From: Luscinia megarhynchos
Taxonomy: Eukaryota > Chordata > Aves > Passeriformes > Turdidae
Assembly: GCA_034336665.1 (NCBI GenBank)
Contig: CM067584.1
Coordinates: 372,001 to 436,000 of the forward strand
DNA length: 64,000 bases
Direction: 5' to 3'
How positions within the stretch are numbered: the first letter of the stretch is position 1; every line of letters starts with the position of its first letter. The position numbers and the translations under genes are program-made. Shown here in pieces: positions 1-28,184 of this stretch. The notes beneath the pieces were generated by a model. That model made no database searches. It was not told the DNA's origin and saw nothing but the letters and a program-made list of their open reading frames with translations.

Positions 1-1358
1 AGATCACCTTTGTCACCAGTGGATTGGTCAACAACCTCAGGAATTACGGAATAGACATCACCGCTATGTGCAGTGGACTCACCACCTACATGGCTTACGA
101 AGTTCACAGTGAGTGCAAGCATGGGAATTCTCAGTGCTACTGACCTGGCCTTTGTGTCTCCTGGGGCATGACTAAGGCACCACTGCCGCTCTTCCTCCTC
201 AAAACCCAGGGACACCAAGGGTTTCTTTCAGCAGTTGCACAAAGGGTTTGGCACCTCTGCAGATCAGGACTGCAAGAGGCTAGCATCACAGCCCCCATAA
301 ATGAACCAAAACAAGCCCTTATAGCTCATCTCCAGAAACCTTAAGGGGGATGAAAGTTTGGCTCAAAATGTTCCAGCCAGCACAGAACTCCCCAGTTATG
401 CCCAGTCAGGAAGAACGGTCATTCTACGGCCTGCTGTCCTACAGATTAGAGCTTGCTAATGAGTTTATCCAAGCAACCCCCAAACCCATGTGCTTCACAA
501 CACTAAATCAAGTGGCTTCGATCCTTGTAGTTTTTTCCCTGAGGCAACAATCCAATTCCCCGGGGCTTTAATGACCTACACTTGGTAGGAGTCTTTCAGA
601 ATATCACAGTCCATGTGACGGGGCCCATGAACTGGCAGCAGCCTCACCGTGTAATGCCCAGCCATCGGGACTCACAGAAGCCAGTGCAATAGAGCCCCAA
701 CTTGTGCACGGGAAATCCCAAAGGGTTTTCAAGAGCACGTCTTTGTGGGCATCCCTTCCTGAGCCACAGAGCCAGTGGTGCCAAGAGACTCTCTCCTGTG
801 TACAGCTCAAACATTCCGAATGCAGCAATTCATCAGAACCTTGCTGGCTCTGAGCAACACCAGCTCTCCTGCAGAAAGGCAGACAAGATCTTAGGCATTG
901 GCTCATGGCATTTTGTCTTTTCTTTTCCAGCCTTCCAAGGACCCCAGACGACTCTGGGATCTTGTATTACCCTCGATGTCCTGAGAGCTGTGGAGCTTCA
1001 GTACTGCATTGGCAATGGCAATTGGAATGGCAACTGGAATGGCAACTGGAATGGCAACTGGAATGGCAATTGGAATGGCAATGGCAATGGCAACTGGAAT
1101 GGCAATTGGAATGGCAACAGCAATTGGAATGGCGATTGGAACGGCGGTAACAATTGGAATGGCGGCTGGAATGGTGGCTGGAATGGCGGTAACAACTGGA
1201 ATGGCGGCTGGAATGGCGGTTGGAACAGTGGTAACAATTGGAATGGTGGTTGGAATGGTGGTATCAACTGGAATGGCGGTTGGAACAGCGGTTGGAATGG
1301 CGGCAACATTTGGAATGGCAGCGGCATTTGGAATGGCAATTGGAGTGGCAACGGACAG
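1..1358 (+). CDS. Gene 1 module 1 (partial, long type): BRICHOS end plus WNGN tail
   Basis: Exon 5 is cut by the window start (1-108, donor GTGAGT at 109) and encodes the end of the BRICHOS core, including the second conserved cysteine ([15 protein letters not shown]). Exon 6 spans 931-1358 after a polypyrimidine-AG acceptor. It encodes [11 protein letters not shown], then [14 protein letters not shown], the two gastrokine-specific cysteines, followed directly by a Trp-Asn-Gly repeat with 23 Trp. The exon ends GGA-CAG then GTGAGA. Unspliced reading would add Val-Arg-Ile-Pro and stop at TAG 1371-1373. A second acceptor AG sits 9 nt downstream (exon start 940) and keeps frame. Intron 5 (109-930) shows no other gene. 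Confidence 0.8.
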
Positions 1359-4300
1359 GTGAGAATTCCTTAGCCCGTACCAAATTTCTTAGACCAAATG
1401 GGGGGACTCCAGAGCTGCTGCCTAAAGCCAACCCTGATGCCCTTCTTTCTTGGCATCTCCTCTTTGAGAGCTTCCTGCTGGAGGCTGCAGATGCTTTAAA
1501 AGAGCAATGGCTGTGGTTTCCATTGAAGACCTTGAGCATGAATTTACTGTGGCCAGGGCTCTTGCACAAACCAACGTCTAAAGGCACAAAATGACAGCTC
1601 TCAGATGTGGCCATGATTCTCTGAATCCATGAAAAGATTTCTTACGGCCTCTGCCCAACACCACAGCCTTGATTCTGGGTCCTTTGGAAAACACTGGGGG
1701 CAGGGCTGGCACTTCCTGGGGGGGCAGCAATTCTTCCATTGTCACAGGGATTTTTCTAAAGCTTTGGGGACATCACTGTTGCCCTTCAAAAATGAAATCT
1801 CTTCTTTCCCTTGGCTTTTTAGTCTCAGCAGATTCCAGGCAGCATCTTCAACAACACGCAAGTCATCATTGGTGGCCAGTCCCAAATTGTGACCATCAAC
1901 AGGCAATGGCGCGTGGCAGTCATTGAGCAAATGAGCGGCGGCGGTTCCTGGAAAACCATCTGGAACTACAACACGGTGAGTGGCAGGGAGGTTGATCGAT
2001 GAAAAAATCATATGAGGACACTGTCTCCTCATACATCTGGCCTAGAGAGGATGATTGTTTCTTTATCCCAAACATTTGGAGTCCACAACATGGAGCAGTA
2101 AAAGTCAGCATGTGTTATGGTTTCCATCCTGACTTTACCCCAACATTAAGCAGTTGGAAAATACAGAATTGTGAGTGCTGAATAATTTCATTTCACAGGG
2201 CGTCATTGCAACCAAAGTCACGCAACAGAACACCTGCTACATTTCCATCATGAACAGAAGCGAGATGCCCCGCTTTGATAATCTGGCCCGCCTGGCACAA
2301 GAGAGCAGGGTAAGCTTCCAAAGGAGTAGCCGGTTCCTGGCCCTGGAGATCATCGGGCCACTTCTTCATGTGCTTTGTCTTTCTGGAGAGGATCAGGTTG
2401 TCTCTAGTGGCAGACTTTCTCTAAACAGTAATGCAGATAAGGAATTTATGGTAGGAACGCTTTGCCAAAAGAAGAAAGGGGCTGCATTAGTCCTTCCCCC
2501 AGCTCCACTTTCTCTGAGGATGTTGAGGATGTCTGCAGCTTGCTGGGCAAAGCCTTGCTCTGAGGAGCCCTTCAAGGACCTTAATCCTTTTGGAATGCCT
2601 GGATCTCAGAGTTCCTCATAGACTGTTCAGTACCAAGCTGCATTGGTCAGCTCCAAACTTGTTGTCGCAGCTACTCTTGGCCAGACTCCCTTGTCCCTTG
2701 GGGCATGAGAGAGCGTCACCCTATTCCTGAACCCTTCCCCCACATTCATGGGATGAGCCACAACTGGAGGCTTGTGGCCCTAGCTAAGGAAAGTGCTAGA
2801 GAGCAGAGGGAAGCCAAGGGCGTGGGAGGAGACAGTAGGAAAGCAGCAAGAGACGTGAGCCAGGCCACACATCATTCCAGGAGGGACAAGAGAGCGGCAA
2901 TTTATCTGAAACAAAGCCCTCTGGAACTGTTTGAAAAGACCTGTCCCACTAGAGCACCCAGAGGTCACAGAGAGGGGCCCTAAGCATCTCCCTGCAAGTC
3001 GCCCGAGAGCAAACGATATCGGCCCGGGCTTGCTGCTGCTCTCTCGGCTTCCAGGTTAGAACGGGCTGCAGGAAGAGACTTCTCCTGCCGGCCTTCTACC
3101 CGACAGCCTGAGTGCCTCTGAGGGGCCAGGGCAGCGACTGAGCAAATGCTCTGGAAGGAGCTCTGGCTCCACAGAGCGGCCGCGACTCCACATCTCCTCT
3201 TCAGTGCTTTCCTTGTGCTGCCACTTCCCTTCACGCTCCGTGCACCTTGACTCCCCTTAGAACAACCTCCGCCTTTAGAGATGCCTACAAAGCTTGCTAG
3301 TGGTTCCACAGCCCCCAGGGGAAAAAAAGGCATCCCTAAAGGCAGCTTGGACTCAAACACCCCGCCACAGGTCAACATTCCAGAGGAACAGCCCTAGCAA
3401 AACCAGCTCCTGACACTGAGCTTGCTGAATGTTGGGTTTTCATGTTTAGAACCTGCTCGGTTTTGGACGACCTAACAAGAAGATCACCTTTGTCACCAGT
3501 GGATTGGTCAACAACCTCAGGAATTACGGAATAGACATCACCGCTATGTGCAGCGGACTCACCACCTACATGGCTTACGAAGTTCACAGTGAGTGCAAGC
3601 ATGGGAATTCTCAGTGCTACTGACCTGGCCTTTGTGTCTCCTGGGGCATGACTAAGGCACCACTGCCGCTCTTCCTCCTCAAAACCCAGGGACACCAAGG
3701 GTTTCTTTCAGCAGTTGCACAAAGGGTTTGGCACCTCTGCAGATCAGGACTGCAAGAGGCTGGCGTCACAGCCCCCATAAATGAACCAAACCAAACCCTT
3801 ACAGCTCATCTCCAGGAAGCTGATGGGGCTTAGATTCGGGCCCAGAGGGTTTTAGTTGACACGACGCTCCCCTGAAATATCCAGTCAAGAAAAAGGGTCG
3901 TACTAAGAACCGCTGTCCTTCAGCGCAGAGCTTGCTGACAACATGATCCAGGAGACCACGAAAGCCTTGGGCTTGGCAACACAAAGCCAAACGGCTTCGA
4001 TCCCTGTAGATCTATCCTTACGTACTTAAAGGACTTACGCTTGCTAGGATTCTTTCAGAACGTCACAGCCCATGTGACTGGGCCCATGAACTGGCAGCGG
4101 CCTCACCGTGTAATGCCCAGCCTTCAGGACTCACAGGAGCCAGTGCCATAGAGTCCTGATTTCTGCACGGGAAATCTCAAAGGGTTTCAGGAGCATGTCT
4201 TTGTGGGCATTCCTTGCTGAGGCACCGAGCCGGTGCTCTATGGGGGTTTCAAGAGAATCTGTCCCTTGTACAGCTCAAACAATCCCAGTTCAGTGAATCT

Positions 4301-7300
4301 TCAGAAACTGTCTGACTCTGAGCAGCACCAGCAGAACACCCTCCTGCAGAAAGGCAGCCCAGGTCTTAGACTTTGGCTCATGGCGTTTTGTCTTTTCTTT
4401 TCCAGCCTTCCAAGGACCCCAGGTGACTCTGGGATCTTGCATTACCCTCGATGTCCTGAGAGCTGTGGAGCTTCAGTACTGCATTGGCAATGGCAGTGTC
4501 AATTTCCCGGTGAGAAAACCTTAGTCCTTGCATTTCTTGGACAAAATGGGGGGACTCCAGAACTGCTGCCCAAAGCCAACCCTGATGCCTTTCTTGCCTG
4601 GCATCTCCTCCCTGAGAGCATCCTGCTTGACAGTGCAGATGCTCTAAACAGAGCGATGGCTGAGTGGAGGTTTCCATTCAAGACCTTGAGCATGGATTTA
4701 CTGTAGCCAGTGCTCTTGCACTCATCAAAATCTAAAGGCACCAGATGAGAGCTGACAGATGTGGCAATGATTTCCTGAATCCATGAAAAGAATTCTTATG
4801 GCCCCCGCCCAAAAGCAGAGCATTGACTGGGGTACTTCGGAAAAGACTGTGAGCAGTGCCAACACTTTCCGAGGGGCAGCAATTCCTCCATTGTAGCAGG
4901 GATTTTTCTAAAGCTTTGGGGCCATCACTGTCTCCATTCAAAGGCAAAATCTCTTCTTTCCCTTGGCTTTTTAGTCTCAGCAGATTCCAGGCAGCATCTT
5001 CAACAACACGCAAGTCATCGTTGGTGGCCAGTCCCAATTTGTGACCATCAACAGGCAATGGCGCGTGGCAGTCATTGAGCAAATGAGCGGCGGCGGTTCC
5101 TGGAAAACCATCTGGAACTACAACACGGTGAGTGGCAGGGACGGGGCTCATTCAAAAAGCATCCAAGAATTCTGGCTCCTAGTACAGCCGGCCCAGGGGT
5201 GGCAAATGTTTCTTTTTCTAAACATTTGCATTCCACGATGCAGGGCTATAAACTCTCAGAATTTGGTATGGTTTCCATCCTGACTTTAACGCAATACTGA
5301 CAGTTGGAAAAAACGGAATTGTGAGAGCTGGATAATTTCATTTCACAGGGCATCATTGCAACCAAAGTCACGCAACAGAACACCTGCTACATTTCCATCA
5401 TGAACAGAAGCGAGATGCCCCGCTTTGATAATCTGGCCCGCCTGGCACAAGAGAGCAGGGTAAGCTTCCAAAGGAGTAGCAGGTTCCTGGCCCCGGAGAT
5501 CATCGGGCCATTTCTTCATGTGCTTTTTCTTTCTGGAGAGGATCAGGTTGCCTCTAGTGGCAGATTTTCTTTTCACTCACCCGTAATATAGAGGGGAAAT
5601 TTGTTAGAGAAATGCTTTGCCAAAAGAAGAAAGGGACTGCATTATAGTCTCCCCGACTTTCTCTGAGGATGTTGAGACTGTCTGCAGCTGGCTGGGCAAA
5701 CCTGGTTTCTGTGCAGCCCTGCAGTGCTTTCCTTGCACTGCTACTTCCTTTCAGCATACCTGCACCTTGACTCTCTTAGAACAACCTCTACCCTTAGATA
5801 TGCCTACAAGGCTTGCTAGTGGTTCCACAGTCACCCCGGGAATTAAAAGTTGTCTCTAAAGGCAGCTTGGACTCAAACACCCCGCCACAGGTCAACATTC
5901 CAGAGCTAGGAACAGCCCAAGCTACCAGCTCCTGACACTGAGCTTGCTGAATGTTGGGTTTTCATGTTTAGAACCTGCTCGGCCTTGGACGACCTACCAG
6001 GAAGATCACCTTTGTCACCAGTGGATTGGTCAACAACCTCAGGAATTACGGAATAGACATCACCGCTATGTGCAGTGGACTCACCACCTACATGGCTTAC
6101 GAAGTTCACAGTGAGTGCAAGCATGGGAATTCTCAGTGCTACTGACCTGGCCTTTGTGTCTCCTGGGGCATGACTAAGGCACCACTGCCGCTCTTCCTCC
6201 TCAAAACCCAGGGACACCAAGGGTTTCTTTCAGCAGTTGCACAAAGGGTTTGGCACCTCTGCAGATCAGGACTGCAAGAGGCTAGCATCACAGCCCCCAT
6301 AAATGAACCAAAACAAGCCCTTATAGCTCATCTCCAGAAACCTTAAGGGGGATGAAAGTTTGGCTCAAAATGTTCCAGCCAGCACAGAACTCCCCAGTTA
6401 TGCCCAGTCAGGAAGAACGGTCATTCTACGGCCTGCTGTCCTACAGATTAGAGCTTGCTAATGAGTTTATCCAAGCAACCCCCAAACCCATGTGCTTCAC
6501 AACACTAAATCAAGTGGCTTCGATCCTTGTAGTTTTTTCCCTGAGGCAACAATCCAATTCCCCGGGGCTTTAATGACCTACACTTGGTAGGAGTCTTTCA
6601 GAATATCACAGTCCATGTGACGGGGCCCATGAACTGGCAGCAGCCTCACCGTGTAATGCCCAGCCATCGGGACTCACAGGAGCCAGTGCAATAGAGCCCC
6701 AACTTGTGCACGGGAAATCCCAAAGGGTTTTCAAGAGCACGTCTTTGTGGGCATCCCTTCCTGAGCCACAGAGCCAGTGATGCCAAGAGACTCTCTCCTG
6801 TGTACAGCTCAAACATTCCGAATGCAGCAATTCATCAGAACCTTGCTGGCTCTGAGCAACACCAGCTCTCCTGCAGAAAGGCAGACAAGGTCTTAGGCAT
6901 TGGCTCATGGCATTTTGTCTTTTCTTTTCCAGCCTTCCAAGGACCCCAGACGACTCTGGGATCTTGCATTACCCTCGATGTCCTGAGAGCTGTGGAGCTT
7001 CAGTACTGCATTGGCAATGGCAATTGGAATGGCAACTGGAATGGCAACTGGAATGGCAATTGGAATGGCAACGGCAATGGCAACTGGAATGGCAATTGGA
7101 ATGGCAATTGGAATGGCAACAGCAATTGGAATGGCGGTTGGAACGGCGGTAACAATTGGAATGGCGGCTGGAATGGTGGCTGGAACGGCGGTAACAACTG
7201 GAATGGCGGCTGGAACAGCGGCAACAACTGGAATGGCGGTTGGAATGGCGGTTGGAACAGTGGTAACAATTGGAATGGTGGTTGGAACGGTGGTATCAAC

Positions 7301-10300
7301 TGGAATGGCGGTTGGAACAGCGGTTGGAATGGCGGCAACATTTGGAATGGCAATTGGAGTGGCAACGGACAGGTGAGAATTCCTTAGCCCGTACCAAATT
7401 TCTTAGACCAAATGGGGGGACTCCAGAGCTGCTGCCTAAAGCCAACCCTGATGCCCTTCTTTCTTGGCATCTCCTCTTTGAGAGCTTCCTGCTGGAGGCT
7501 GCAGATGCTTTAAAAGAGCAATGGCTGTGGTTTCCATTGAAGACCTTGAGCATGAATTTACTGTGGCCAGGGCTCTTGCACAAACCAACGTCTAAAGGCA
7601 CAAAATGACAGCTCTCAGATGTGGCAATGATTCTCTGAATCCATGAAAAGATTTCTTACGGCCTCTGCCCAACACCACAGCCTTGATTCTGGGTCCTTTG
7701 GAAAACACTGGGGGCAGGGCTGGCACTTCCTGGGGGGGCAGCAATTCTTCCATTGTCACAGGGATTTTTCTAAAGCTTTGGGGACATCACTGTTGCCCTT
7801 CAAAAATGAAATCTCTTCTTTCCCTTGGCTTTTTAGTCTCAGCAGATTCCAGGCAGCATCTTCAACAACACGCAAGTCATCATTGGTGGCCAGTCCCAAA
7901 TTGTGACCATCAACAGGCAATGGCGCGTGGCAGTCATTGAGCAAATGAGCGGCGGCGGTTCCTGGAAAACCATCTGGAACTACAACACGGTGAGTGGCAG
8001 GGAGGTTGATCGATGAAAAAATCATATGAGGACACTGTCTCCTCATACATCTGGCCTAGAGAGGATGATTGTTTCTTTATCCCAAACATTTGGAGTCCAC
8101 AACATGGAGCAGTAAAAGTCAGCATGTGTTATGGTTTCCATCCTGACTTTACCCCAACATTAAGCAGTTGGAAAATACAGAATTGTGAGTGCTGAATAAT
8201 TTCATTTCACAGGGCGTCATTGCAACCAAAGTCACGCAACAGAACACCTGCTACATTTCCATCATGAACAGAAGCGAGATGCCCCGCTTTGATAATCTGG
8301 CCCGCCTGGCACAAGAGAGCAGGGTAAGCTTCCAAAGGAGTAGCCGGTTCCTGGCCCTGGAGATCATCGGGCCACTTCTTCATGTGCTTTGTCTTTCTGG
8401 AGAGGATCAGGTTGTCTCTAGTGGCAGACTTTCTCTAAACAGTAATGCAGATAAGGAATTTATGGTAGGAACGCTTTGCCAAAAGAAGAAAGGGGCTGCA
8501 TTAGTCCTTCCCCCAGCTCCACTTTCTCTGAGGATGTTGAGGATGTCTGCAGCTTGCTGGGCAAAGCCTTGCTCTGAGGAGCCCTTCAAGGACCTTAATC
8601 CTTTTGGAATGCCTGGATCTCAGAGTTCCTCATAGACTGTTCAGTACCAAGCTGCATTGGTCAGCTCCAAACTTGTTGTCGCAGCTACTCTTGGCCAGAC
8701 TCCCTTGTCCCTTGGGGGCATGAGAGAGCGTCACCCTATTCCTGAACCCTTCCCCACATTCATGGGATGAGCCACAACTGGAGGCTTGTGGCCCTAGCTA
8801 AGGAAAGTGCTAGAGAGCAGAGGGAAGCCAAGGGCGTGGGAGGAGACAGTAGGAAAGCAGCAAGAGACGTGAGCCAGGCCACACATCATTCCAGGAGGAC
8901 AAGAGAGCGGCAATTTATCTGAAACAAAGCCCTCTGGAACTGTTTGAAAAGACCTGTCCCACTAGAGCACCCAGAGGTCACAGAGAGGGGCCCTAAGCAT
9001 CTCCTGCAAGTCGCCCGAGAGCAAACGTATCGGCCCGGGCTTGCTGCTGCTCTCTCTCGGCTTCCAGGTTAGAACGGGCTGCAGGAAGAGACTTCTCCTG
9101 CCGGCCTTCTACCCGACAGCCTGAGTGCCTCTGAGGGGCCAGGGCAGCGACTGAGCAAATGCTCTGGAAGGAGCTCTGGCTCCACAGAGCGGCCGCACTC
9201 CACATCTCCTCTTCAGTGCTTTCCTTGTGCTGCCACTTCCCTTCACGCTCCGTGCACCTTGACTCCCTTAGAACAACCTCCGCCTTTAGAGATGCCTACA
9301 AAGCTTGCTAGTGGTTCCACAGCCCCCAGGGGAAAAAAAGGCATCCCTAAAGGCAGCTTGGACTCAAACACCCCGCCACAGGTCAACATTCCAGAGGAAC
9401 AGCCCTAGCAAAAACCAGCTCCTGACACTGAGCTTGCTGAATGTTGGGTTTTCATGTTTAGAACCTGCTCGGTTTTGGACGACCTAACAAGAAGATCACC
9501 TTTGTCACCAGTGGATTGGTCAACAACCTCAGGAATTACGAATAGACATCACCGCTATGTGCAGCGGACTCACCACCTACATGGCTTACGAAGTTCACAG
9601 TGAGTGCAAGCATGGGAATTCTCAGTGCTACTGACCTGGCCTTTGTGTCTCCTGGGGCATGACTAAGGCACCACTGCCGCTCTTCCTCCTCAAAACCCAG
9701 GGACACCAAGGGTTTCTTTCAGCAGTTGCACAAAGGGTTTGGCACCTCTGCAGATCAGGACTGCAAGAGGCTGGCGTCACAGCCCCCATAAATGAACCAA
9801 ACCAAACCCTTACAGCTCATCTCCAGGAAGCTGATGGGGCTTAGATTCGGGCCCAGAGGGTTTTAGTTGACACGACGCTCCCCTGAAATATCCAGTCAAG
9901 AAAAAGGGTCGTACTAAGAACCGCTGTCCTTCAGCGCAGAGCTTGCTGACAACATGATCCAGGAGACCACGAAAGCCTTGGGCTTGGCAACACAAAGCCA
10001 AACGGCTTCGATCCCTGTAGATCTATCCTTACGTACTTAAAGGACTTACGCTTGCTAGGATTCTTTCAGAACGTCACAGCCCATGTGACTGGGCCCATGA
10101 ACTGGCAGCGGCCTCACCGTGTAATGCCCAGCCTTCAGGACTCACAGGAGCCAGTGCCATAGAGTCCTGATTTCTGCACGGGAAATCTCAAAGGGTTTCA
10201 GGAGCATGTCTTTGTGGGCATTCCTTGCTGAGGCACCGAGCCGGTGCTCTATGGGGGTTTCAAGAGAATCTGTCCCTTGTACAGCTCAAACAATCCCAGT

Positions 10301-16300: not shown

Positions 16301-19300
16301 TCTGTCCCTTGTACAGCTCAAACAATCCCAGTTCAGTGAATCTTCAGAAACTGTCTGACTCTGAGCAGCACCAGCAGAACACCCTCCTGCAGAAAGGCAG
16401 CCCAGGTCTTAGACTTTGGCTCATGGCGTTTTGTCTTTTCTTTTCCAGCCTTCCAAGGACCCCAGGTGACTCTGGGATCTTGCATTACCCTCGATGTCCT
16501 GAGAGCTGTGGAGCTTCAGTACTGCATTGGCAATGGCAGTGTCAATTTCCCGGTGAGAAAACCTTAGTCCTTGCATTTCTTGGACAAAATGGGGGGACTC
16601 CAGAACTGCTGCCCAAAGCCAACCCTGATGCCTTTCTTGCCTGGCATCTCCTCCCTGAGAGCATCCTGCTTGACAGTGCAGATGCTCTAAACAGAGCGAT
16701 GGCTGAGTGGAGGTTTCCATTCAAGACCTTGAGCATGGATTTACTGTAGCCAGTGCTCTTGCACTCATCAAAGTCTAAAGGCACCAGATGAGAGCTGACA
16801 GATGTGGCAATGATTTCCTGAATCCATGAAAAGAATTCTTATGGCCCCCGCCCAAAAGCAGAGCATTGACCGGGGTACTTTGGAAAAGATTGTGAGCAGT
16901 GCCAACGCTTCCCGAGGGGCAGCAATTCCTCCATTGTAGCAGGAATTTTTCTAAAGCTTTGGGACCATCACTGTCTCCATTCAAAGGCAAAATCTCTTCT
17001 TTCCCTTGGCTTTTTAGTCTCAGCAGATTCCAGGCAGCATCTTCAACAACACGCAAGTCATCGTTGGTGGCCAGTCCCAATTTGTGACCATCAACAGGCA
17101 ATGGCGCGTGGCAGTCATTGAGCAAATGAGCGGCGGCGGTTCCTGGAAAACCATCTGGAACTACAACACGGTGAGTGGCAGGGACGGGGCTCATTCAAAA
17201 AGCATCCAAGAATTCCGGCTCCTAGTACAGCCGGCCCAGGGGTGGCAAATGTTTCTTTTTCTAAACATTTGCATTCCACGATGCAGGGCTATAAACTCTC
17301 AGAATTTGGTATGGTTTCCATCCTGACTTTAACGCAATACTGACAGTTGGAAAAAACGGAATTGTGAGAGCTGGATAATTTCATTTCACAGGGCATCATT
17401 GCAACCAAAGTCACGCAACAGAACACCTGCTACATTTCCATCATGAACAGAAGCGAGATGCCCCGCTTTGATAATCTGGCCCGCCTGGCACAAGAGAGCA
17501 GGGTAAGCTTCCAAAGGAGTAGCAGGTTCCTGGCCCCGGAGATCATCGGGCCATTTCTTCATGTGCTTTTTCTTTCTGGAGAGGATCAGGTTGCCTCTAG
17601 TGGCAGATTTTCTTTTCACTCACCCGTAATATAGAGGGGAAATTTGTTAGAGAAATGCTTTGCCAAAAGAAGAAAGGGACTGCATTATAGTCTCCCCGAC
17701 TTTCTCTGAGGATGTTGAGACTGTCTGCAGCTGGCTGGGCAAACCTGGTTTCTGTGCAGCCCTGCAGTGCTTTCCTTGCACTGCTACTTCCTTTCAGCAT
17801 ACCTGCACCTTGACTCTCTTAGAACAACCTCTACCCTTAGATATGCCTACAAGGCTTGCTAGTGGTTCCACAGTCACCCCGGGAATTAAAAGTTGTCTCT
17901 AAAGGCAGCTTGGACTCAAACACCCCGCCACAGGTCAACATTCCAGAGCTAGGAACAGCCCAAGCTACCAGCTCCTGACACTGAGCTTGCTGAATGTTGG
18001 GTTTTCATGTTTAGAACCTGCTCGGCCTTGGACGACCTACCAGGAAGATCACCTTTGTCACCAGTGGATTGGTCAACAACCTCAGGAATTACGGAATAGA
18101 CATCACCGCTATGTGCAGTGGACTCACCACCTACATGGCTTACGAAGTTCACAGTGAGTGCAAGCATGGGAATTCTCAGTGCTACTGACCTGGCCTTTGT
18201 GTCTCCTGGGGCATGACTAAGGCACCACTGCCGCCTCTTCCTCCCTGAAAACCCAGGGACACCAAGGGTTTCTTTCAGCAGTTGCACAAAGGGTTTGGCA
18301 CCTCTGCAGATCAGGACTGCAAGAGGCTAGCATCACAGCCCCCATAAATGAACCAAAACAAGCCCTTATAGCTCATCTCCAGAAACCTTAAGGGGGATGA
18401 AAGTTTGGCTCAAAATGTTCCAGCCAGCACAGAACTCCCCAGTTATGCCCAGTCAGGAAGAACGGTCATTCTACGGCCTGCTGTCCTACAGATTAGAGCT
18501 TGCTAATGAGTTTATCCAAGCAACCCCCAAACCCATGTGCTTCACAACACTAAATCAAGTGGCTTCGATCCTTGTAGTTTTTTCCCTGAGGCAACAATCC
18601 AACTCCCCGGGCTTTAATGACCTACACTTGGTAGGAGTCTTTCAGAATATCACAGTCCATGTGACGGGGCCCATGAACTGGCAGCAGCCTCACCGTGTAA
18701 TGCCCAGCCATCGGGACTCACAGGAGCCAGTGCAATAGAGCCCCAACTTGTGCACGGGAAATCCCAAAGGGTTTTCAAGAGCACGTCTTTGTGGGCATCC
18801 CTTCCTGAGCCACAGAGCCAGTGATGCCAAGAGACTCCCTCCTGTGTACAGCTCAAACATTCCGAATGCAGCAATTCATCAGAACCTTGCTGGCTCTGAG
18901 CAACACCAGCTCTCCTGCAGAAAGGCAGACAAGGTCTTAGGCATTGGCTCATGGCATTTTGTCTTTTCTTTTCCAGCCTTCCAAGGACCCCAGACGACTC
19001 TGGGATCTTGCATTACCCTCGATGTCCTGAGAGCTGTGGAGCTTCAGTACTGCATTGGCAATGGCAATTGGAATGGCAACTGGAATGGCAACTGGAATGG
19101 CAATTGGAATGGCAACGGCAATGGCAACTGGAATGGCAATTGGAATGGCAATTGGAATGGCAACAGCAATTGGAATGGCGGCTGGAATGGTGGCTGGAAT
19201 GGCGGTAACAACTGGAATGGCGGCTGGAACAGCGGCAACAATTGGAATGGCGGTTGGAATGGTGGTAACAACTGGAATGGCGGCTGGAACAGCGGCAACA

Positions 19301-22300
19301 ACTGGAATGGCGGTTGGAATGGCGGTTGGAACAGTGGCAACAATTGGAATGGTGTTTGGAACGGTGGTATCAACTGGAATGGCGGTTGGAACAGCGGTTG
19401 GAATGGCGGCAACATTTGGAATGGCAGCGGCATTTGGAATGGCAATTGGAGTGGCAACGGACAGGTGAGAATTCCTTAGCCCGTACCAAATTTCTTAGAC
19501 CAAATGGGGGGACTCCAGAGCTGCTGCCTAAAGCCAACCCTGATGCCCTTCTTTCTTGGCATCTCCTCTTTGAGAGCTTCCTGCTGGAGGCTGCAGATGC
19601 TTTAAAAGAGCAATGGCTGTGGTTTCCATTGAAGACCTTGAGCATGAATTTACTGTGGCCAGGGCTCTTGCACAAACCAACGTCTAAAGGCACAAGATGA
19701 CAGCTCTCAGATGTGGCAATGATTCTCTGAATCCATGAAAAGATTTCTTACGGCCTCTGCCCAACACCACAGCCTTGATTCTGGGTCCTTTGGAAAACAC
19801 TGGGGGCAGGGCTGGCACTTCCTGGGGGGGCAGCAATTCTTCCATTGTCACAGGGATTTTTCTAAAGCTTTGGGGACATCACTGTTGCCCTTCAAAAATG
19901 AAATCTCTTCTTTCCCTTGGCTTTTTAGTCTCAGCAGATTCCAGGCAGCATCTTCAACAACACGCAAGTCATCATTGGTGGCCAGTCCCAAATTGTGACC
20001 ATCAACAGGCAATGGCGCGTGGCAGTCATTGAGCAAATGAGCGGCGGCGGTTCCTGGAAAACCATCTGGAACTACAACACGGTGAGTGGCAGGGAGGTTG
20101 ATCGATGAAAAAATCATATGAGGACACTGTCTCCTCATACATCTGGCCTAGAGAGGATGATTGTTTCTTTATCCCAAACATTTGGAGTCCACAACATGGA
20201 GCAGTAAAAGTCAGCATGTGTTATGGTTTCCATCCTGACTTTACCCCAACATTAAGCAGTTGGAAAATACAGAATTGTGAGTGCTGAATAATTTCATTTC
20301 ACAGGGCGTCATTGCAACCAAAGTCACGCAACAGAACACCTGCTACATTTCCATCATGAACAGAAGCGAGATGCCCCGCTTTGATAATCTGGCCCGCCTG
20401 GCACAAGAGAGCAGGGTAAGCTTCCAAAGGAGTAGCCGGTTCCTGGCCCTGGAGATCATCGGGCCACTTCTTCATGTGCTTTTGTCTTTCTGGAGAGGAT
20501 CAGGTTGTCTCTAGTGGCAGACTTTCCTTTCTCTAAACAGTAATGCAGATAAGGAATTTATGGTAGGAACGCTTTGCCAAAAGAAGAAAGGGGCTGCATT
20601 AGTCCTTCCCCCAGCTCCACTTTCTCTGAGGATGTTGAGGATGTCTGCAGCTTGCTGGGCAAAGCCTTGCTCTGAGGAGCCCTTCAAGGACCTTAATCCT
20701 TTTGGAATGCCTGGATCTCAGAGTTCCTCATAGACTGTTCAGTACCAAGCTGCATTGGTCAGCTCCAAACTTGTTGTCGCAGCTACTCTTGGCCAGACTC
20801 CCTTGTCCCTTGGGGCATGAGAGAGCGTCACCCTATTCCTGAACCCTTCCCCCACATTCATGGGATGAGCCACAACTGGAGGCTTGTGGCCCTAGCTAAG
20901 GAAAGTGCTAGAGAGCAGAGGGAAGCCAAGGGCGTGGGAGGAGACAGTAGGAAAGCAGCAAGAGACGTGAGCCAGGCCACACATCATTCCAGGAGGACAA
21001 GAGAGCGGCAATTTATCTGAAACAAAGCCCTCTGGAACTGTTTGAAAAGACCTGTCCCACTAGAGCACCCAGAGGTCACAGAGAGGGGCCCTAAGCATCT
21101 CCTGCAAGTCGCCCGAGAGCAAACGTATCGGCCCGGGCTTGCTGCTGCTCTCTCTCGGCTTCCAGGTTAGAACGGGCTGCAGGAAGAGACTTCTCCTGCC
21201 GGCCTTCTACCCGACAGCCTGAGTGCCTCTGAGGGGCCAGGGCAGCGACTGAGCAAATGCTCTGGAAGGAGCTCTGGCTCCACAGAGCGGCCGCACTCCA
21301 CATCTCCTCTTCAGTGCTTTCCTTGTGCTGCCACTTCCCTTCACGCTCCGTGCACCTTGACTCCCTTAGAACGACCTCTGCCTTTAGAGAAGCCTACAAG
21401 GCTTGCTAGTGGTTCCACAGCCCCCAGGGGAAAAAAAGGCATCCCTAAAGGCAGCTTGGACTCAAACACCCCGCCACAGGTCAACATTCCAGAGGAACAG
21501 CCCTAGCAAAAACCAGCTCCTGACACTGAGCTTGCTGAATGTTGGGTTTTCATGTTTAGAACCTGCTCGGCCTTGGACGACCTACCAGGAAGATCACCTT
21601 TGTCACCAGTGGATTGGTCAACAACCTCAGGAATTACGGAATAGACATCACCGCTATGTGCAGCGGACTCACCACCTACATGGCTTATGAAGTTCACAGT
21701 GAGTGCAAGCATGGGAATTCTCAGTGCTACTGACCTGGCCTTTGTGTCTCCTGGGGCATGACTAAGGCACCACTGCCGCTCTTCCTCCTCAAAACCCAGG
21801 GACACCAAGGGTTTCTTTCAGCAGTTGCACAAAGGGTTTGGCACCTCTGCAGATCAGGATTGCAAGAGGCTGCCATCACAGCCCCCATAAATGAACCAAA
21901 CCAACACTTACAGCTCATCTCCAGGAAGCTGATGGGGCTTAGGTTCGGGCCCAGAGGGTTTTAGTTGACACGACGCTCCCCTGAAATATCCAGTCAAGAA
22001 AAAGGGTCGTACTAAGAACCGCTGTCCTTCAGCGCAGAGCTTGCTGACAACATGATCCAGGAGACCACGAAAGCCTTGGGCTTGGCAACACAAAGCCAAA
22101 CGGCTTCGATCCCTGTAGATCTATCCTTACGTACTTAAAGGACTTACGCTTGCTAGGATTCTTTCAGAACGTCACAGCCCATGTGACTGGGCCCATGAAC
22201 TGGCAGCGGCCTCACCGTGTAATGCCCAGCCTTCAGGACTCACAGGAGCCAGTGCCATAGAGTCCTGATTTCTGCACGGGAAATCTCAAAGGGTTTCAGG

Positions 22301-25300
22301 AGCATGTCTTTGTGGGCATTCCTTGCTGAGGCACCGAGCCGGTGCTCTATGGGGGTTTCAAGAGAATCTGTCCCTTGTACAGCTCAAACAATCCCAGTTC
22401 AGTGAATCTTCAGAAACTGTCTGACTCTGAGCAACACCAGCAGAACACCCTCCTGCAGAAAGGCAGCCCAGGTCTTAGACTTTGGCTCATGGCGTTTTGT
22501 CTTTTCTTTTCCAGCCTTCCAAGGACCCCAGGTGACTCTGGGATCTTGCATTACCCTCGATGTCCTGAGAGCTGTGGAGCTTCAGTACTGCATTGGCAAT
22601 GGCAGTGTCAATTTCCCGGTGAGAAAACCTTAGTCCTTGCATTTCTTGGACAAAATGGGGGGACTCCAGAACTGCTGCCCAAAGCCAACCCTGATGCCTT
22701 TCTTGCCTGGCATCTCCTCCCTGAGAGCATCCTGCTTGACAGTGCAGATGCTCTAAACAGAGCGATGGCTGAGTGGAGGTTTCCATTCAAGACCTTGAGC
22801 ATGGATTTACTGTAGCCAGTGCTCTTGCACTCATCAAAATCTAAAGGTACCAGATGAGAGCTGACAGATGTGGCAATGATTTCCTGAATCCATGAAAAGA
22901 ATTCTTATGGCCCCCGCCCAAAAGCAGAGCATTGACCGGGGTACTTTGGAAAAGATTGTGAGCAGTGCCAACACTTCCCGAGGGGCAGCAATTCCTCCAT
23001 TGTAGCAGGGATTTTTCTAAAGCTTTCGGGACATCACTGTCTCCATTCAAAAGCAAAATCTCTTCTTTTCCTTGGCTTTTTAGTCTCAGCAGATTCCAGG
23101 CAGCATCTTCAACAACACGCAAGTCATCGTTGGTGGCCAGTCCCAATTTGTGACCATCAACAGGCAATGGCGCGTGGCAGTCATTGAGCAAATGAGCGGC
23201 GGCGGTTCCTGGAAAACCATCTGGAACTACAACACGGTGAGTGGCAGGGACGGGGCTCATTCAAAAAGCATCCAAGAATTCCGGCTCCTAGTACAGCCGG
23301 CCCAGGGGTGGCAAATGTTTCTTTTTCTAAACATTTGCATTCCACGATGCAGGGCTATAAACTCTCAGAATTTGGTATGGTTTCCATCCTGACTTTAACG
23401 CAATACTGACAGTTGGAAAAAACGGAATTGTGAGAGCTGGATAATTTCATTTCACAGGGCATCATTGCAACCAAAGTCACGCAACAGAACACCTGCTACA
23501 TTTCCATCATGAACAGAAGCGAGATGCCCCGCTTTGATAATCTGGCCCGCCTGGCACAAGAGAGCAGGGTAAGCTTCCAAAGGAGTAGCCGGTTCCTGGC
23601 CCTGGAGGTCATCGGGCCATTTCTTCATGTGCTTTGTCTTTCTGGAGAGGATCAGGTTGCCGCTAGTGTCAGATTTTCTTTTCACTCACCCGTAATATAG
23701 AGGGGAAATTTGTTAGAGAAATGCTTTGCCAAAAGAAGAAAGGGACTGCATTATAGTCTCCCCGACTTTCTTTGAGGATGTTGAGACTGTCTGCAGCTGG
23801 CTGGGCAAACCTGGTTTCTGTGCAGCCCTGCAGTGCTTTCCTTGCACTGCTACTTCCTTTCAGCATACCTGCACCTTGACTCTCTTAGAACAACCTCTAC
23901 CCTTAGATATGCCTACAAGGCTTGCTAGTGGTTCCACAGTCACCCCGGGAATTAAAAGTTGTCTCTAAAGGCAGCTTGGACTCAAACACCCCGCCACAGG
24001 TCAACATTCCAGAGCTAGGAACAGCCCAAGCTACCAGCTCCTGACACTGAGCTTGCTGAATGTTGGGTTTTCATGTTTAGAACCTGCTCGGCCTTGGACG
24101 ACCTACCAGGAAGATCACCTTTGTCACCAGTGGATTGGTCAACAACCTCAGGAATTACGGAATAGACATCACCGCTATGTGCAGTGGACTCACCACCTAC
24201 ATGGCTTACGAAGTTCACAGTGAGTGCAAGCATGGGAATTCTCAGTGCTACTGACCTGGCCTTTGTGTCTCCTGGGGCATGACTAAGGCACCACTGCCGC
24301 TCTTCCTCCTCAAAACCCAGAGACACCAAGGGTTTCTTTCAGCAGTTGCACAAAGGGTTTGGCACCTCTGCAGATCAGGACTGCAAGAGGCTAGCATCAC
24401 AGCCCCCATAAATGAACCAAAACAAGCCCTTATAGCTCATCTCCAGAAACCTTAAGGGGGATGAAAGTTTGGCTCAAAATGTTCCAGCCAGCACAGAACT
24501 CCCCAGTTATGCCCAGTCAGGAAGAACGGTCATTCTACGGCCTGCTGTCCTACAGATTAGAGCTTGCTAATGAGTTTATCCAAGCAACCCCCAAACCCAT
24601 GTGCTTCACAACACTAAATCAAGTGGCTTCGATCCTTGTAGTTTTTTCCCTGAGGCAACAATCCAATTCCCCGGGGCTTTAATGACCTACACTTGGTAGG
24701 AGTCTTTCAGAATATCACAGTCCATGTGACGGGGCCCATGAACTGGCAGCAGCCTCACCGTGTAATGCCCAGCCATCGGGACTCACAGGAGCCAGTGCAA
24801 TAGAGCCCCAACTTGTGCACGGGAAATCCCAAAGGGTTTTCAAGAGCACGTCTTTGTGGGCATCCCTTCCTGAGCCACAGAGTCAGTGCTTTATGGGGAC
24901 TCTGAACAAATCTGTCCCTCATACAGCTCAAACATTCCCAGTGCAGAAATTCTTCAGAATCTCGCTGGCTCTGAGCAACACCAGCTCTCCTGCAGAAAGG
25001 CAGACAAGATCTTAGGCATTGGCTCATGGCGTTTTGTCTTTTCTTTTCCAGCCTTCCAAGGACCCCAGACGACTCTGGGATCCTGCATTACCCTCGATGT
25101 CCTGAGGGCTGTGGAGCTTCAGTACTGCATTGGCAATGGCAACTGGAATGGCAATTGGAATGGCAACAGCAATTGGAATGGCGGTTGGAACGGCGGTTGG
25201 AACAGTGTTTGGAATGGCGGTAACAATTGGAATGGTGGTTGGAATGGTGGTTGGAACAATGGTAACAACTGGAATGGCAACTGGAATGGCAGTGGCAATT

Positions 25301-28184
25301 GGAATGGAAACGGCAATTGGAATGGCAATGGCAATTGGAATGGCGGTTGGAATGGAGGTTGGAACGGCGGTAACAACTGGACTGGCGGTTGGAATGACAT
25401 TTGGAATGGCGAAAACATTTGGAATGGCAGTGGCATTTGGAATGGTGGTTGGAATAGTGGTAGCAATTGGAATGGCACTTGGAATGGCAATTGGAATAGC
25501 AATGGCAACTGGAATGGCAATTGGAATGGCAATGGACAGGTGAGAAAACCTTATCCCTTACCATGTCTTAAACCAAATGGGGTGATTCCAGAGCTTCTGC
25601 CAAAAGCCAGCCCTGATGCCCTTCTAACCTGGCATCTCCTCATTGAGAACTTCCTGCTGGAGAGTGCAGATTAGGTCAGCAGAGGTCTCCATTCAAGACC
25701 TTGAGCATGAATTTACTGTGGCCAGTGCTTTTGCACTCATCAAAACTTAAAGTCACCAGATGACAGCTGTCAGATGCAGCAATGATTCTCAGAATCCATG
25801 AAAAGAATTCTTATGGCCTCTGCTGTACTCTTATGCCTTTTTTTTTGTTTTTATTTCACATATCTCTCTCATTTTAAAATACACCTCTACTGCTACCTAT
25901 TCTTTTTCTGGACGTATTTTTTAATATATATTGTGTGAGACCCAGCTATTTGCATAGTCTGAAAATATTTCATGTGTTTTTCTTATCTCAGCAGACAAAT
26001 AACCAACAAATCATCACTGATGGAGATTCTCAAATCTCCATCTCTGGTGGGGACTCTCACATCTCCATCTCTGGTGTATCCCAGAGCATGAGCATCAATA
26101 GTCAAACACAAACAGCAATTTTTGAGCAAAAGAGCAACCGCTTGTCTTGGAAAACCATCTGGAACTACAACACGGTGAGTGGCAAGGAGGGGGCTTTTTC
26201 AAAATGTATACAAGCAGACTGGCTCCTTACACAGCTGGCCCACACGTGGGGAGTGTTTTCGTTATCCTAAATTTTGGAGTCCATGATATCGTGTAGAAAG
26301 TCTCAGCATTTGTTATTGTTTCAGTCTAAACTTATTTCAATGTTAACAGTTGGGAAAAACTGAATTGTGAGTGCTCAATAATTTTATTTTACAGGGTGTC
26401 ATTGCAACAAAAGTGATGCAAGAGAGAACATGCTACATTTCCACCATGAACAGGAGTGAGATGCCCAGCTTTGCTGCACTTATGAAAGTGGCTGCAGAGA
26501 GGAGGGTAAGAATTTAATGGAGTCACTTGGAATATTGCTCAGTATTTGAAAGTAAACAGATGTGGAAGACTGCTATTTTCGAGGCCTTTTAAACCATTAG
26601 ATATTTAGAAGTGATTTATATCACACTGTTAATTATGTAGTTCAATTTATTTTGAGTTTTATTTTATTTTAAAAGGTTCAAAAATAAGAATAAGTTCTTT
26701 AAGGTGAAGGTTTCTCATTTTTTATTAATGTTGTAGATATCCTGGGTAATTTTTACGTTGTTTGCAATGAGTTGTTAAACTGACCTCTTTTTAATCCTCT
26801 CTTGTGACCCAAGAGTGTAGATATGTGGTAAGGTACCCTTTAAAATCTTCCATTCCTTGCATGGTAAAAAAACTAGTTTCTTGTGTTGAGGTGCATTTGA
26901 TGAAGAACAAATATCTCAATAACCTGGAAAGTTTTAAATCATCTCTCAAAATGTTTGCAAATAACTACCATGTTCACATGAGGTCCACCCACTAAATTAA
27001 CATGGCATTTAAAAAATAGTATCAGCATTTAGCATATTCACCTTTGGTAGGCACTGGCATCCACTGAAGACTCAGAACTGAATCCTTAAAAACATGAAGG
27101 CTTTAAAGAGCAAGAACACCTAGGGGGCAGAAGAAAACCAGCAGAGTGTTATCAGTAAAGGCATAAGCAAAAAGATTCAGCTTTAGCTATAGATTGTGTC
27201 TTGCTTCAAGGCTTGACTCCCTTAGAACGAGCTCTGCCTTTGGAGCTGCCTTCAAGGCTTTCTAGTGCTTCCACAGGCCCCCAGGGGATTAAAAGATGTC
27301 CCTAAAGGCAGGTTGGACTCAAACACCCAGCCCCAAGTCATCATTCCAGAAATAGGAATAGGCCTAGAAGGGAAGGAGCTCCTGACACTGAGCTTGCTGA
27401 ATGCTTGTTTTTGTTGTTCAGAACCAGATTGGTTTTGGAAGACCTAACAAGATGATCACCTTTGTCACCAACGGACTGGTCAACAACCTCATGTCTTATG
27501 GAGCAAATGTCTTCTCCATGTGCAGTGGACTCACCACCTACATGACTCGTGAAGTTTACGGTGAGTGCAAAGGAATTCTGTCTCTAAGTGATGTGGCATT
27601 TTTTTCCCTTGGGAATGAAGAATGCACACTTGCTGCTCTTCCACTTTGAGATGCACAGTTTCAGCAGTTGCGCAAAGGGTTTGACATCTCCACAGCTCAG
27701 GACTGAAAAAAGGTTGAGTCACAGCCTCCATAAATGACCTGATCTATACCATTACTACCCATTTTTGTGAAGTTTAAGGTGGCTTAAGTTATTGTGTAGG
27801 ATTTTACACACTGATATCCTCTGCAGTGCCTACACTATACTAAGAGAAAGAATAGCTCTAAGCACCACTATTCTCTCATTTCTGTATTATAGACCCAGCG
27901 TTGTTTTGTGACTTCAAAGAGATTCTTTGTCTATTAAAAGATTTCTTATATAGCAATTATATTCTTAAACATCATAGTTTACTAGGCTACTTTTCATTTT
28001 TGTTACTAGAAAGCAACAAAAATGAGCTCTCATAGATTACCTAAGAATATCTTCCCTATGAACTAATTGTAATTTTTTCATTTGTTTTTTTAAAGGACCC
28101 CAATACAATCAACAATCGTGCACTGCACTTAACGTCTTGAGACTCGTGGAGTTGAAGTACTGCAGAGGCAATGGACACATTTGA
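1..28184 (+). CDS. Gene 1: multi-BRICHOS gastrokine-like gene, 5'-truncated by the window
   Basis: This is a spliced gene of ten gastrokine modules, the first cut by the window start. The exons total about 2,190 codons if every module is joined. Each complete module has exons 3-4-5-6 with phases 0/0, 0/0, 0/1 and 1/0. Exon 6 of modules 1-9 ends in CAG or CCG followed by GTGAGA, in phase 0, and a phase-0 acceptor of the next exon 3 follows 450-470 nt later. No signal-peptide exon or TATA box lies between modules. Only the last module ends in a stop (TGA 28182-28184) with no donor. Known family role: gastrokines are secreted by gastric surface mucous cells, and BRICHOS is a chaperone domain that blocks amyloid formation. 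The chain architecture is my inference. The alternative is a cluster of separate gastrokine-like genes or pseudogenes that have lost exons 1-2. The gene's start is upstream of the window. Confidence 0.65.
1011..1358 (+). repeat. In-frame WNGN/WNGG minisatellite, gene 1 module 1
   Basis: A coding repeat built from a 12-nt unit of the form AAT-GGC-AAT/C-TGG. It starts as perfect Asn-Trp-Asn-Gly units and drifts to Gly-Gly-Trp-Asn with GGT/GGC codons towards the 3' end. I count 23 Trp. Nearly all residues are Trp, Asn or Gly, with scattered Ser, Ile and one Asp. The repeat keeps frame to the exon-6 donor, which argues for selection on the protein and against neutral microsatellite growth. Confidence 0.9.
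1823..4509 (+). CDS. Gene 1 module 2 (short type BRICHOS module)
   Basis: Exons are 1823-1975, 2199-2309, 3450-3588 and 4406-4509. Exon 3 reads [18 protein letters not shown] and ends [10 protein letters not shown], and contains an NNT glycosylation sequon. Exon 4 begins [16 protein letters not shown] with the first BRICHOS cysteine. Exon 5 begins [14 protein letters not shown]. Exon 6 lacks the WNGN tail and ends in IGNGSVNFP before GTGAGA; unspliced reading would stop at TAG 4522-4524. The exon-3 start could instead be 1829, since TCTCAG gives a second acceptor and removes two codons. Intron 4 (2310-3449, 1,140 nt) is twice as long as in long modules; it and intron 5 (3589-4405) show no other gene. 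Confidence 0.8.
4975..7372 (+). CDS. Gene 1 module 3 (long type BRICHOS module)
   Basis: Exons are 4975-5127, 5349-5459, 5972-6110 and 6933-7372. It differs from the short module at fixed sites: exon 3 has [11 protein letters not shown] where module 2 has [11 protein letters not shown], exon 4 starts GIIATK, and exon 5 starts [12 protein letters not shown]. Exon 6 encodes 147 codons (including the split codon) with a WNGN tail of 24 Trp. The donor is CAG/GTGAGA, with the readthrough TAG at 7385-7387. Intron 4 is 512 nt, the standard length for long modules. Introns hold nothing else I can identify. Confidence 0.8.
7013..7372 (+). repeat. In-frame WNGN/WNGG minisatellite, gene 1 module 3
   Basis: The same Trp-Asn-Gly coding repeat, with 24 Trp by my count. 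Compared with module 1 it lacks one early NWNG unit and one terminal SGIWNG unit and gains an internal NSGNNWNGG unit. All differences are multiples of three, so the repeat changed length by whole in-frame units. Confidence 0.9.
7837..10520 (+). CDS. Gene 1 module 4 (short type) with a 1-nt deletion in exon 5
   Basis: Exons are 7837-7989, 8213-8323, 9462-9599 and 10417-10520. Exons 3, 4 and 6 match module 2. Exon 5 is 138 nt where all other gene 1 copies have 139. A single G is missing near 9540, so the sequence reads TACGAATAG where sister copies read TACGGAATAG. This puts a TAG at 9543-9545 in frame, upstream of the second BRICHOS cysteine. If real, it would truncate a joined polyprotein here. 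It could also be a consensus error in a near-identical repeat. Intron 4 is 1,138 nt. Confidence 0.75.
10988..13403 (+). CDS. Gene 1 module 5 (long type BRICHOS module)
   Basis: Exons are 10988-11140, 11362-11472, 11985-12123 and 12946-13403, all of the expected length and in frame. The BRICHOS part is the same as module 3. Exon 6 is 153 codons including the split codon, with a WNGN tail of 25 Trp that regains the SGIWNG unit and has one Gly-to-Val change (GVWNGG). Donor CAG/GTGAGA is followed by an in-frame TAG at 13416-13418 if unspliced. Confidence 0.8.
13026..13403 (+). repeat. In-frame WNGN/WNGG minisatellite, gene 1 module 5
   Basis: Trp-Asn-Gly coding repeat with 25 Trp by my count, intermediate in length between modules 3 and 7. 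It carries the WNGVWNGG variant shared only with module 7, which suggests these two repeats are the closest relatives. Confidence 0.9.
13868..16552 (+). CDS. Gene 1 module 6 (short type BRICHOS module)
   Basis: Exons are 13868-14020, 14244-14354, 15493-15631 and 16449-16552, all in frame. Here exon 5 has the full 139 nt, in contrast to module 4, so the short type is intact in this copy. The C-terminus before the donor is IGNGSVNFP. Intron 4 is 1,138 nt and intron 5 is 817 nt; I see no other feature in either. Confidence 0.8.
17018..19464 (+). CDS. Gene 1 module 7 (long type BRICHOS module)
   Basis: Exons are 17018-17170, 17392-17502, 18015-18153 and 18977-19464. BRICHOS exons match modules 3 and 5. 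Exon 6 has 163 codons including the split codon and 27 Trp, one of the two longest WNGN tails in the window, with an extra block of [10 protein letters not shown] units. Donor CAG/GTGAGA; readthrough TAG at 19477-19479. Intron 5 has small indels against other copies near 18235-18245 and 18600. Confidence 0.8.
19057..19464 (+). repeat. In-frame WNGN/WNGG minisatellite, gene 1 module 7
   Basis: Trp-Asn-Gly coding repeat with 27 Trp by my count. Relative to module 5 it has gained in-frame [22 protein letters not shown] units in the middle, as expected from unequal exchange or slippage within the repeat. Confidence 0.9.
19929..22618 (+). CDS. Gene 1 module 8 (short type BRICHOS module)
   Basis: Exons are 19929-20081, 20305-20415, 21560-21698 and 22515-22618, all in frame. 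Exons 3 and 4 are of the short type, but exon 5 begins [14 protein letters not shown], the residues typical of long modules. This looks like a small gene-conversion tract from a neighbouring long module. Intron 4 is 1,144 nt. Confidence 0.8.
23084..25539 (+). CDS. Gene 1 module 9 (long type, diverged WNGN exon)
   Basis: Exons are 23084-23236, 23458-23568, 24081-24219 and 25052-25539. The BRICHOS exons are homogenised with the rest of the array. From about 24880 onward, in intron 5, the sequence diverges, and exon 6 carries a different WNGN tail of 27 Trp with units such as [21 protein letters not shown] and WNGENIW. It ends NGNGQ before GTGAGA. The TAG found 12 nt past the donor in most other copies is TAT here, so unspliced reading runs on to 25674. 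This favours true splicing at this donor. Confidence 0.8.
25132..25539 (+). repeat. Diverged in-frame WNGN minisatellite, gene 1 module 9
   Basis: Trp-Asn-Gly coding repeat with 27 Trp by my count. It is not a simple copy of the other four: the order of units differs and it includes Asp, Glu, Thr, Ile and Ser substitutions. The frame is still open throughout, so the Trp/Asn/Gly composition has been kept while the exact sequence changed. Confidence 0.9.
25992..28184 (+). CDS. Gene 1 module 10: terminal BRICHOS module with stop
   Basis: Exons are 25992-26174, 26395-26505, 27422-27560 and 28096-28184. Exon 3 is longer (61 codons) because of a duplicated stretch, [10 protein letters not shown] then GDSHISISG. 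Only the TCTCAG acceptor is available here, so the exon starts with CAG. Exon 4 reads [17 protein letters not shown] and has [10 protein letters not shown] instead of [10 protein letters not shown]. Exon 5 starts [14 protein letters not shown] and resembles gene 2 modules. Exon 6 reads [20 protein letters not shown], then KYCRGNGHI and TGA. No GT donor follows, so this is the 3' end of the gene. Intron 4 (26506-27421) is AT-rich and holds no other gene. Confidence 0.85.

Follow-up and report, generated by a model that had tools for sequence, protein, structure and literature searches.

The first 28,184 nucleotides of the window (the whole stretch of 64,000 nt analysed here, C25:372001-436000) contain the last three quarters of gene 1. 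To judge from the genomic sequence, gene 1 is very probably a single unit of about 36 kb, encoding a signal peptide and twelve gastrokine BRICHOS modules, that grew from a single-BRICHOS gene. The modules are probably spliced into one chain. The region compared covers 154 kb: the window, 40 kb upstream and 50 kb downstream. Unless indicated otherwise, coordinates are those of the window and features are on the forward strand.

Organisation of the locus

Four exon types recur at regular spacing at positions 1-28184, as found by BLAST with the four exons. Gene 1 is represented in the window by nine complete modules and by exons 5 and 6 of one more. The first-pass annotation had counted about ten modules; there are indeed ten exon 6s in the window, but only nine modules are complete there, and the whole gene has twelve. 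Upstream of the window are found a TATA box, the start codon (C25:363793), the signal exon (C25:364407-364460) and three more modules, the third of which runs on into the window. The whole gene spans C25:363.7-400.3 kb, and the twelve modules read in the genome give a predicted chain of about 2,750 residues, in line with the earlier estimate of more than 2,000. The exons are mostly of 153, 111 and 139 nt, followed by an exon 6 of 104 or 428-488 nt; those of the terminal module are of 183, 111, 139 and 89 nt. The exon phases are 0-0, 0-0, 0-1 and 1-0, as had been proposed and as the exon lengths bear out.

Two kinds of modules alternate in gene 1, kind A with a short linker and kind B with a long Asn/Gly/Trp linker. 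Exons 3-4 and the first bases of exon 5 of module III (kind B) are at C25:370974-372000, the frame of exon 4 being broken; the end of exon 5, located by BLAST, is at 1-108, and exon 6, with the long linker and a phase-0 donor, is at 931-1358. The other kind B modules in the window are module 5 at 4975-7372 (exons 4975-5127, 5349-5459, 5972-6110, 6933-7372), module 7 at 10988-13403 (exons 10988-11140, 11362-11472, 11985-12123, 12946-13403), module 9 at 17018-19464 (exons 17018-17170, 17392-17502, 18015-18153, 18977-19464) and module 11 at 23084-25539 (exons 23084-23236, 23458-23568, 24081-24219, 25052-25539). Kind A is represented by module 4 at 1823-4509 (exons 1823-1975, 2199-2309, 3450-3588, 4406-4509), whose frame is intact, module 6 at 7837-10520 (exons 7837-7989, 8213-8323, 9462-9599, 10417-10520), module 8 at 13868-16552 (exons 13868-14020, 14244-14354, 15493-15631, 16449-16552) and module 10 at 19929-22618 (exons 19929-20081, 20305-20415, 21560-21698, 22515-22618). 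Terminal module 12 is at 25992-28184 (exons 25992-26174, 26395-26505, 27422-27560, 28096-28184), and an alternative acceptor 3 nt further on is possible for its first exon. The gene ends with one stop and one poly(A) signal: the tenth exon 6, already recognised as the terminator, ends with TGA at 28184, and ATTAAA follows at 28328-28333, 144 nt 3' of the stop.

A second poly-BRICHOS gene, gene 2, starts with a TATAAA box (39501-39506), exon 1 with the coding part Met-Asn-Leu-Pro (39564-39575) and exon 2 encoding the signal peptide (40176-40229). Ten four-exon BRICHOS modules follow at 40664-62217, with exon 3 starting at 40664, 43633, 45752, 47875, 49998, 52115, 54238, 56342, 58461 and 60586. 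As assembled, the frame is intact in four of these ten modules, the first, second, fourth and sixth. From the second module onward the units, 2.1 kb each, are nearly identical. Next come an assembly gap of 100 N (62633-62732) and an exon 6 with a phase-0 donor (63064-63167), whose exons 3-5 are presumably in the gap. The terminal module (63638-64000) is represented by exon 3 (63638-63778) and the start of exon 4; it ends beyond the window, where its stop is at C25:437845 and AATAAA follows after 148 nt. Gene 2 has at least 12 modules, the gap included.

Gene 3 lies directly after gene 2 (ATG at C25:441185, stop at 444193, ATTAAA 158 nt later). It has the same exons 1-6 once, with a single BRICHOS domain and an intact frame of 182 residues, and exons 3-6 of each module match it exon by exon. 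An intact single-BRICHOS gene beside the arrays thus allows a before/after comparison within one genome. BLAST with the promoter/start exon and the signal exon of gene 2 as queries (E up to 1e-3) found the former once in each of the three genes and nowhere else in the 154 kb. The signal exon is likewise present once in each gene, with one additional, weaker match at C25:358581-358654 that belongs to an upstream gastrokine-like gene.

Several other elements were observed around the arrays. An exon-like copy at 33960-34480 is 95-97% alike to part of a gastrokine-like gene at C25:359.4-360.8 kb; no signal exon was found beside it, and so it is probably a gene fragment. An exon-like match on the opposite strand (C25:352817-352924) represents a further gastrokine-type BRICHOS gene. 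A Pro/His/Trp-rich minisatellite with a long open frame was seen at C25:469351-471180. Genes 1 and 2 are preceded by blocks with 83-99% identity to one another, some of which may be dispersed repeats; the repeats at 33100-33600 and 37400-39080 resemble CR1 3' ends, fitting a bird genome. In the human gene order the gastrokine locus is beside BMP10; an open reading frame on the reverse strand at C25:335388-335822 reads like a BMP10 propeptide, which would fit a gastrokine locus. In a Pfam search of the species' own 1.09-Gb assembly, at least 26 exon matches were found, 22 on C25 and four on four other contigs.

Membership in the BRICHOS family was assigned by the Pfam model PF04089 above its cut-off of 25 bits, and the domain was found in all seven module classes or genes tested. 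Bit scores are 65.1-70.8 for five single units, 137.7 for a piece of gene 2 with two modules and 393.7 for a six-module chain of gene 1, the latter in six stretches. On this repetitive chain three unrelated Pfam families pass whole-protein cut-offs as well, as sums of weak pieces none of which passes alone. Cysteines C64 and C122 are invariant in all seven aligned units. C64 is aligned with the first conserved BRICHOS cysteine in a PDB-profile alignment, and C122 we take to be the second of the pair. The cysteine pair after the domain, C146 and C160, a gastrokine feature, is also invariant in 7/7 units. Together with it, one signal exon per gene and the six-exon plan of gene 3 match the gastrokines. 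The profile match to the proSP-C structure 2YAD is weak (E 0.1) and covers the domain core and the position of the conserved Asp, where 16 of the 17 modules read have Asn and one has His, 6 of the 23 modules being unreadable in frame. Gene 3 also carries Asn at this site. A PDB search by single sequence gave no match, and among viral contigs nine pattern matches were found, none of them a relative.

Inter-module introns and probable growth of the arrays

The first-pass annotation proposed one long poly-BRICHOS gene grown by tandem duplication, with a phase-0 donor on each exon 6 except the last and the next exon 3 about 460 nt on. Indeed, GTGAG was found at the start and AG at the end of all nine gene 1 inter-module introns of the window, and these introns are 452-467 nt long. 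The kind A example (4510-4974) separates an exon 6 with its last base at 4509 from an exon 3 with its first base at 4975, in agreement with the annotation; the intron has the GTGAG donor, an AG acceptor and no AATAAA or ATTAAA. Its 5' part matches the terminal 3'UTR and its 3' part matches intron 2 of gene 2.

The same composition was observed over six classes of inter-module introns, namely the two common kinds of gene 1, the module 11-to-12 intron, the first and the common introns of gene 2, and the intron after the gap. The 5' parts of all six classes match the 3'UTR of the gene 1 terminal exon (E from 7e-12 to 3e-22). The 3' parts of five classes match gene 2 intron 2 (E from 1e-9 to 5e-20), the module 11-to-12 intron being the only class whose 3' part has no such match. 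When the introns are aligned to the terminal exons of the three genes, their GTGAG donor falls roughly where those exons have the stop. The poly(A) hexamer (ATTAAA or AATAAA) occurs at the same alignment columns in all three terminal exons and in none of the six intron classes. The T/G-rich stretch after the hexamer site is 5 nt shorter and altered in the introns. Immediately 3' of the donor, all six classes have in common 7-10 bases with no counterpart in the terminal exons, which suggests a single origin before genes 1 and 2 parted. This homology to the 3'UTR and intron 2 speaks for the tandem duplication and explains how the chain may have arisen.

The ancestor would have been a six-exon, single-BRICHOS gastrokine gene like gene 3. 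Tandem duplication may have affected a block that began within intron 2, included exons 3-6 and ended within the 3'UTR; the stop codon would have given way to a GTGAG splice donor, and the poly(A) signal would have been lost. By these changes the 3'UTR would turn into the 5' part of an intron, and what had been the last exon would become internal. With phase 0 at both ends, the block is symmetric, and further copies leave the reading frame intact. The block may then have multiplied, and another duplication of the locus would have produced gene 2. In the transcripts, every internal exon 6 would be spliced to the exon 3 of the following module, from one end of the array to the other.

The splice sites agree with such transcripts. 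Scored with a matrix of assumed frequencies, the 19 exon 6 donors are all in the 97.8-100th percentile of the 2,829 GTs in the window, and the 19 exon 3 acceptors are all in the 97.8-98.9 percentile of all AGs. Donor strength is kept although the intron classes differ by up to 43%.

One possibility is that each module is a separate single-BRICHOS gene and that the starts and ends of these genes were missed. Translation continued across an exon 6 donor runs into an in-frame stop, after 12 nt in 16 of the 19 cases, so that a protein could terminate there if exon 6 were left unspliced. However, such a tandem cluster is very improbable. BLAST (E up to 1e-3) found no homologue of the promoter, start exon or signal exon inside either array, as the first-pass annotation had noted for gene 1. 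TATAAA is present in intron 3 of four gene 1 modules and in none of the introns that link one module to the following one. AATAAA and ATTAAA are absent from all 19 inter-module introns scanned in the window, nine of them in gene 1 (two upstream introns of gene 1 and the gapped intron of gene 2 lie outside the scan), and only weaker variants, AATGAA, TTTAAA, AATATA and AATACA, occur in some of them. The single-domain gene 3 shows what a genuine start and end look like. One gene per module was rejected because neither promoters nor signal exons nor poly(A) signals were found between the modules; one promoter, one start exon and one signal exon serve the whole array, in agreement with one long gene.

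The modules could also be false duplications, made in assembly, of a gene with one or few modules. The near-identical copies, the N gap in gene 2 and the many indel errors are consistent with this, and the copy number may still be off. On the other hand, kinds A and B alternate and differ by about 21% in introns but by 2% in exons 3-5. The copies have private substitutions and different linker lengths, the last module is distinct in both genes, and the first module is distinct in gene 2. Artefact alone was rejected because of the strong difference between the two kinds in introns, and false duplication is a highly unlikely source of the arrays.

The similarity of kinds A and B is concentrated in the exons: they are 98% alike in exons 3-5 and 79% in introns. 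Identity drops outside exons 3 and 4 and less around exon 5. For example, at 13868-19464 the two kinds are 95-100% alike in exons 3-5 and 60-92% alike over a large part of the sequence flanking exons 3 and 4. The dN/dS ratio is below 1 (0.42-0.82) in nine of the ten class pairs; between kinds A and B it is 1.16, on only 10 changes, two synonymous and eight other. With only two synonymous changes, exon-centred gene conversion seems likelier than selection alone.

Linkers and frame breaks

Every second module of gene 1 contains a long linker of 115-135 residues. The six linkers are at C25:367033-367377 and, in the window, at 1014-1358, 7016-7372, 13029-13403, 19060-19464 and 25135-25539. Taken together they have 744 residues, of which 38.4% are Asn, 32.1% Gly and 20.0% Trp. 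The exons 6 that encode them are of 428, 428, 440, 458, 488 and 488 nt, differing in steps of 12, 18 and 30 nt. In all six the length modulo 3 is 2 and there is no in-frame stop; the other frames contain 1 and 2-7 stops. One-transition neighbours of the main linker codons are synonymous in 186 cases and not in 40, an excess expected if the amino acids matter, repeat amplification also shaping these counts. The predicted fold of exon 6 with the linker is uninformative (mean pLDDT 38.6).

As assembled, the frame is broken in four of the 12 complete modules of gene 1 (I, II, III and 6) and in six of the 11 complete modules of gene 2; in module 6 of gene 1 the cause is a 1-nt deletion in exon 5 (9462-9599). 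The first three modules of gene 1 being among those affected, a literal reading would yield a truncated protein.

In gene 2 the breaks look like assembly error. Eight units were compared, copies 99-100% alike not being independent evidence. None of the 56 substitutions is in exons, which make up 23% of the length, and all 56 are in introns (p 6e-7); counting synonymous sites only, none was seen where 3.8 would be expected (p 0.02). The indels are distributed near proportion, ten of 63 in exons and 53 in introns (p 0.18), and 60 of the 63 touch CpG or homopolymers of at least 3, the background being 0.42. The eighth unit is error-rich: it alone accounts for 22 of the substitutions and 20 of the indels. 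This pattern is fitted better by uncorrected sequencing error in a hard-to-polish repeat than by decay. The same T insertion at GCGCGTGG was observed in module II of gene 1 and module 7 of gene 2, with a variant in module 10. Gene 3, which is unique sequence, has no frameshift.

For gene 1 the frame breaks may likewise be assembly error, although the case is weaker than for gene 2. Substitutions are not depleted in exons, which contain 7 of 45 in kind A and 25 of 103 in kind B, as length predicts. The indels at CpG or homopolymers are 14 of 21 in kind A (p 0.01) and 19 of 23 in kind B (p 1e-5).

Another explanation of the broken frames is that the arrays are mostly dead: one or few modules would be used, for example by splicing exon 2 to the last module, and the others would be skipped or pseudogenised. 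All modules are symmetric, so that skipping would preserve the frame. The lack of substitution depletion in gene 1 exons and the description of chicken gizzard GKN1 as a 20-kDa protein (PMC2588339) are also consistent with this. However, gene 2 exons carry no substitutions, the indels are at CpG and homopolymers, and one insertion recurs at the same motif in both genes. Moreover, the long linkers stay open and change in length in frame, and the donors are strong in all 19 internal exon 6s scored. We consider dead arrays unlikely.

Possible product and known BRICHOS proteins

The product of gene 1 would be a secreted, multivalent protein of the gastric surface or lining. Each BRICHOS domain may shield its own beta-prone tail, and the Asn/Gly/Trp spacers may add a sticky, matrix-forming character; a chaperone function is suggested by the family. 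The extreme linker chemistry (38% Asn, 32% Gly, 20% Trp) suggests a material role.

A more specific suggestion, rather doubtful, is that the two poly-BRICHOS genes encode a structural Trp-rich polymer of the stomach lining, e.g. of the koilin layer, the lining of the gizzard. BRICHOS would keep the beta-prone tails and the spacers soluble in the secretory pathway, the secreted chain would set into a tough cuticle, and its length would evolve by addition of phase-0 modules.

The gastrokine ovocalyxin-21 is abundant in chicken eggshell (PMC4666066, PMC3766105, PMC2827412). Among eggshells it is reported from that of the chicken only, and it was not detected in those of turkey and zebra finch; this argues against a role in eggshells generally (PMC4666066, PMC3766105). 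Gastrokine-1 purified from chicken gizzard is a 20 kDa protein with one BRICHOS domain (PMC2588339). The predicted protein has in common with GKN1 and ovocalyxin-21 the gastrokine-type BRICHOS domain, the signal peptide and the four cysteines. In contrast, the latter have one domain, about 175-180 residues and a stop in exon 6, whereas twelve domains and about 2,750 residues are predicted for gene 1 (PMC2588339, PMC4666066). proSP-C, a pro-protein that combines a single BRICHOS domain with a transmembrane region prone to aggregation (PMC10182729), gives the weak profile match in which the core and the Asp position are aligned.

The first-pass annotation took gastrokines to be single-BRICHOS proteins. 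One-domain GKN1 proteins do exist, but GKN1-family precursors with multiple BRICHOS domains have been published (PMC9627735). Chen 2022 describes precursors that combine several BRICHOS domains and the beta-prone regions belonging to them, with a maximum of nineteen domains per precursor; GKN1 is one of the four families with such proteins (PMC9627735). The conserved Asp, which is not a strict criterion, was found there in 97% of the BRICHOS domains that occur singly and in 31% of those that occur in multiples; in multi-BRICHOS precursors Asn replaces it in 68% of domains, and the domains without Asp are all GKN1 (PMC9627735). Since such precursors with Asn for Asp were already reported, the chain predicted from gene 1 is of a published kind, the GKN1-family multi-BRICHOS precursors. 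A 2023 review calls the biological functions of the class unknown (PMC10182729).

In the literature on multiple or tandem BRICHOS domains, as far as covered and the supplement of Chen 2022 aside, no description of such a gene structure or such linkers was found. Gene 1 gives gene-level support to this protein class. It suggests a checkable route from a one-domain secreted protein to a giant chain, in which a donor at the stop codon makes the 3'UTR an intron. Like the precursors of Chen 2022 (PMC9627735), it would have several BRICHOS domains per chain and Asn at the Asp site, here in 16 of 17 modules read from the genome. The proteins of that study are from databases, and in the parts covered no gene structure, Asn/Gly/Trp linkers, alternation of two module kinds or stop-to-donor origin was found. 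The kind itself being known, the stop-to-donor origin and the Asn/Gly/Trp linkers are the points of real interest.
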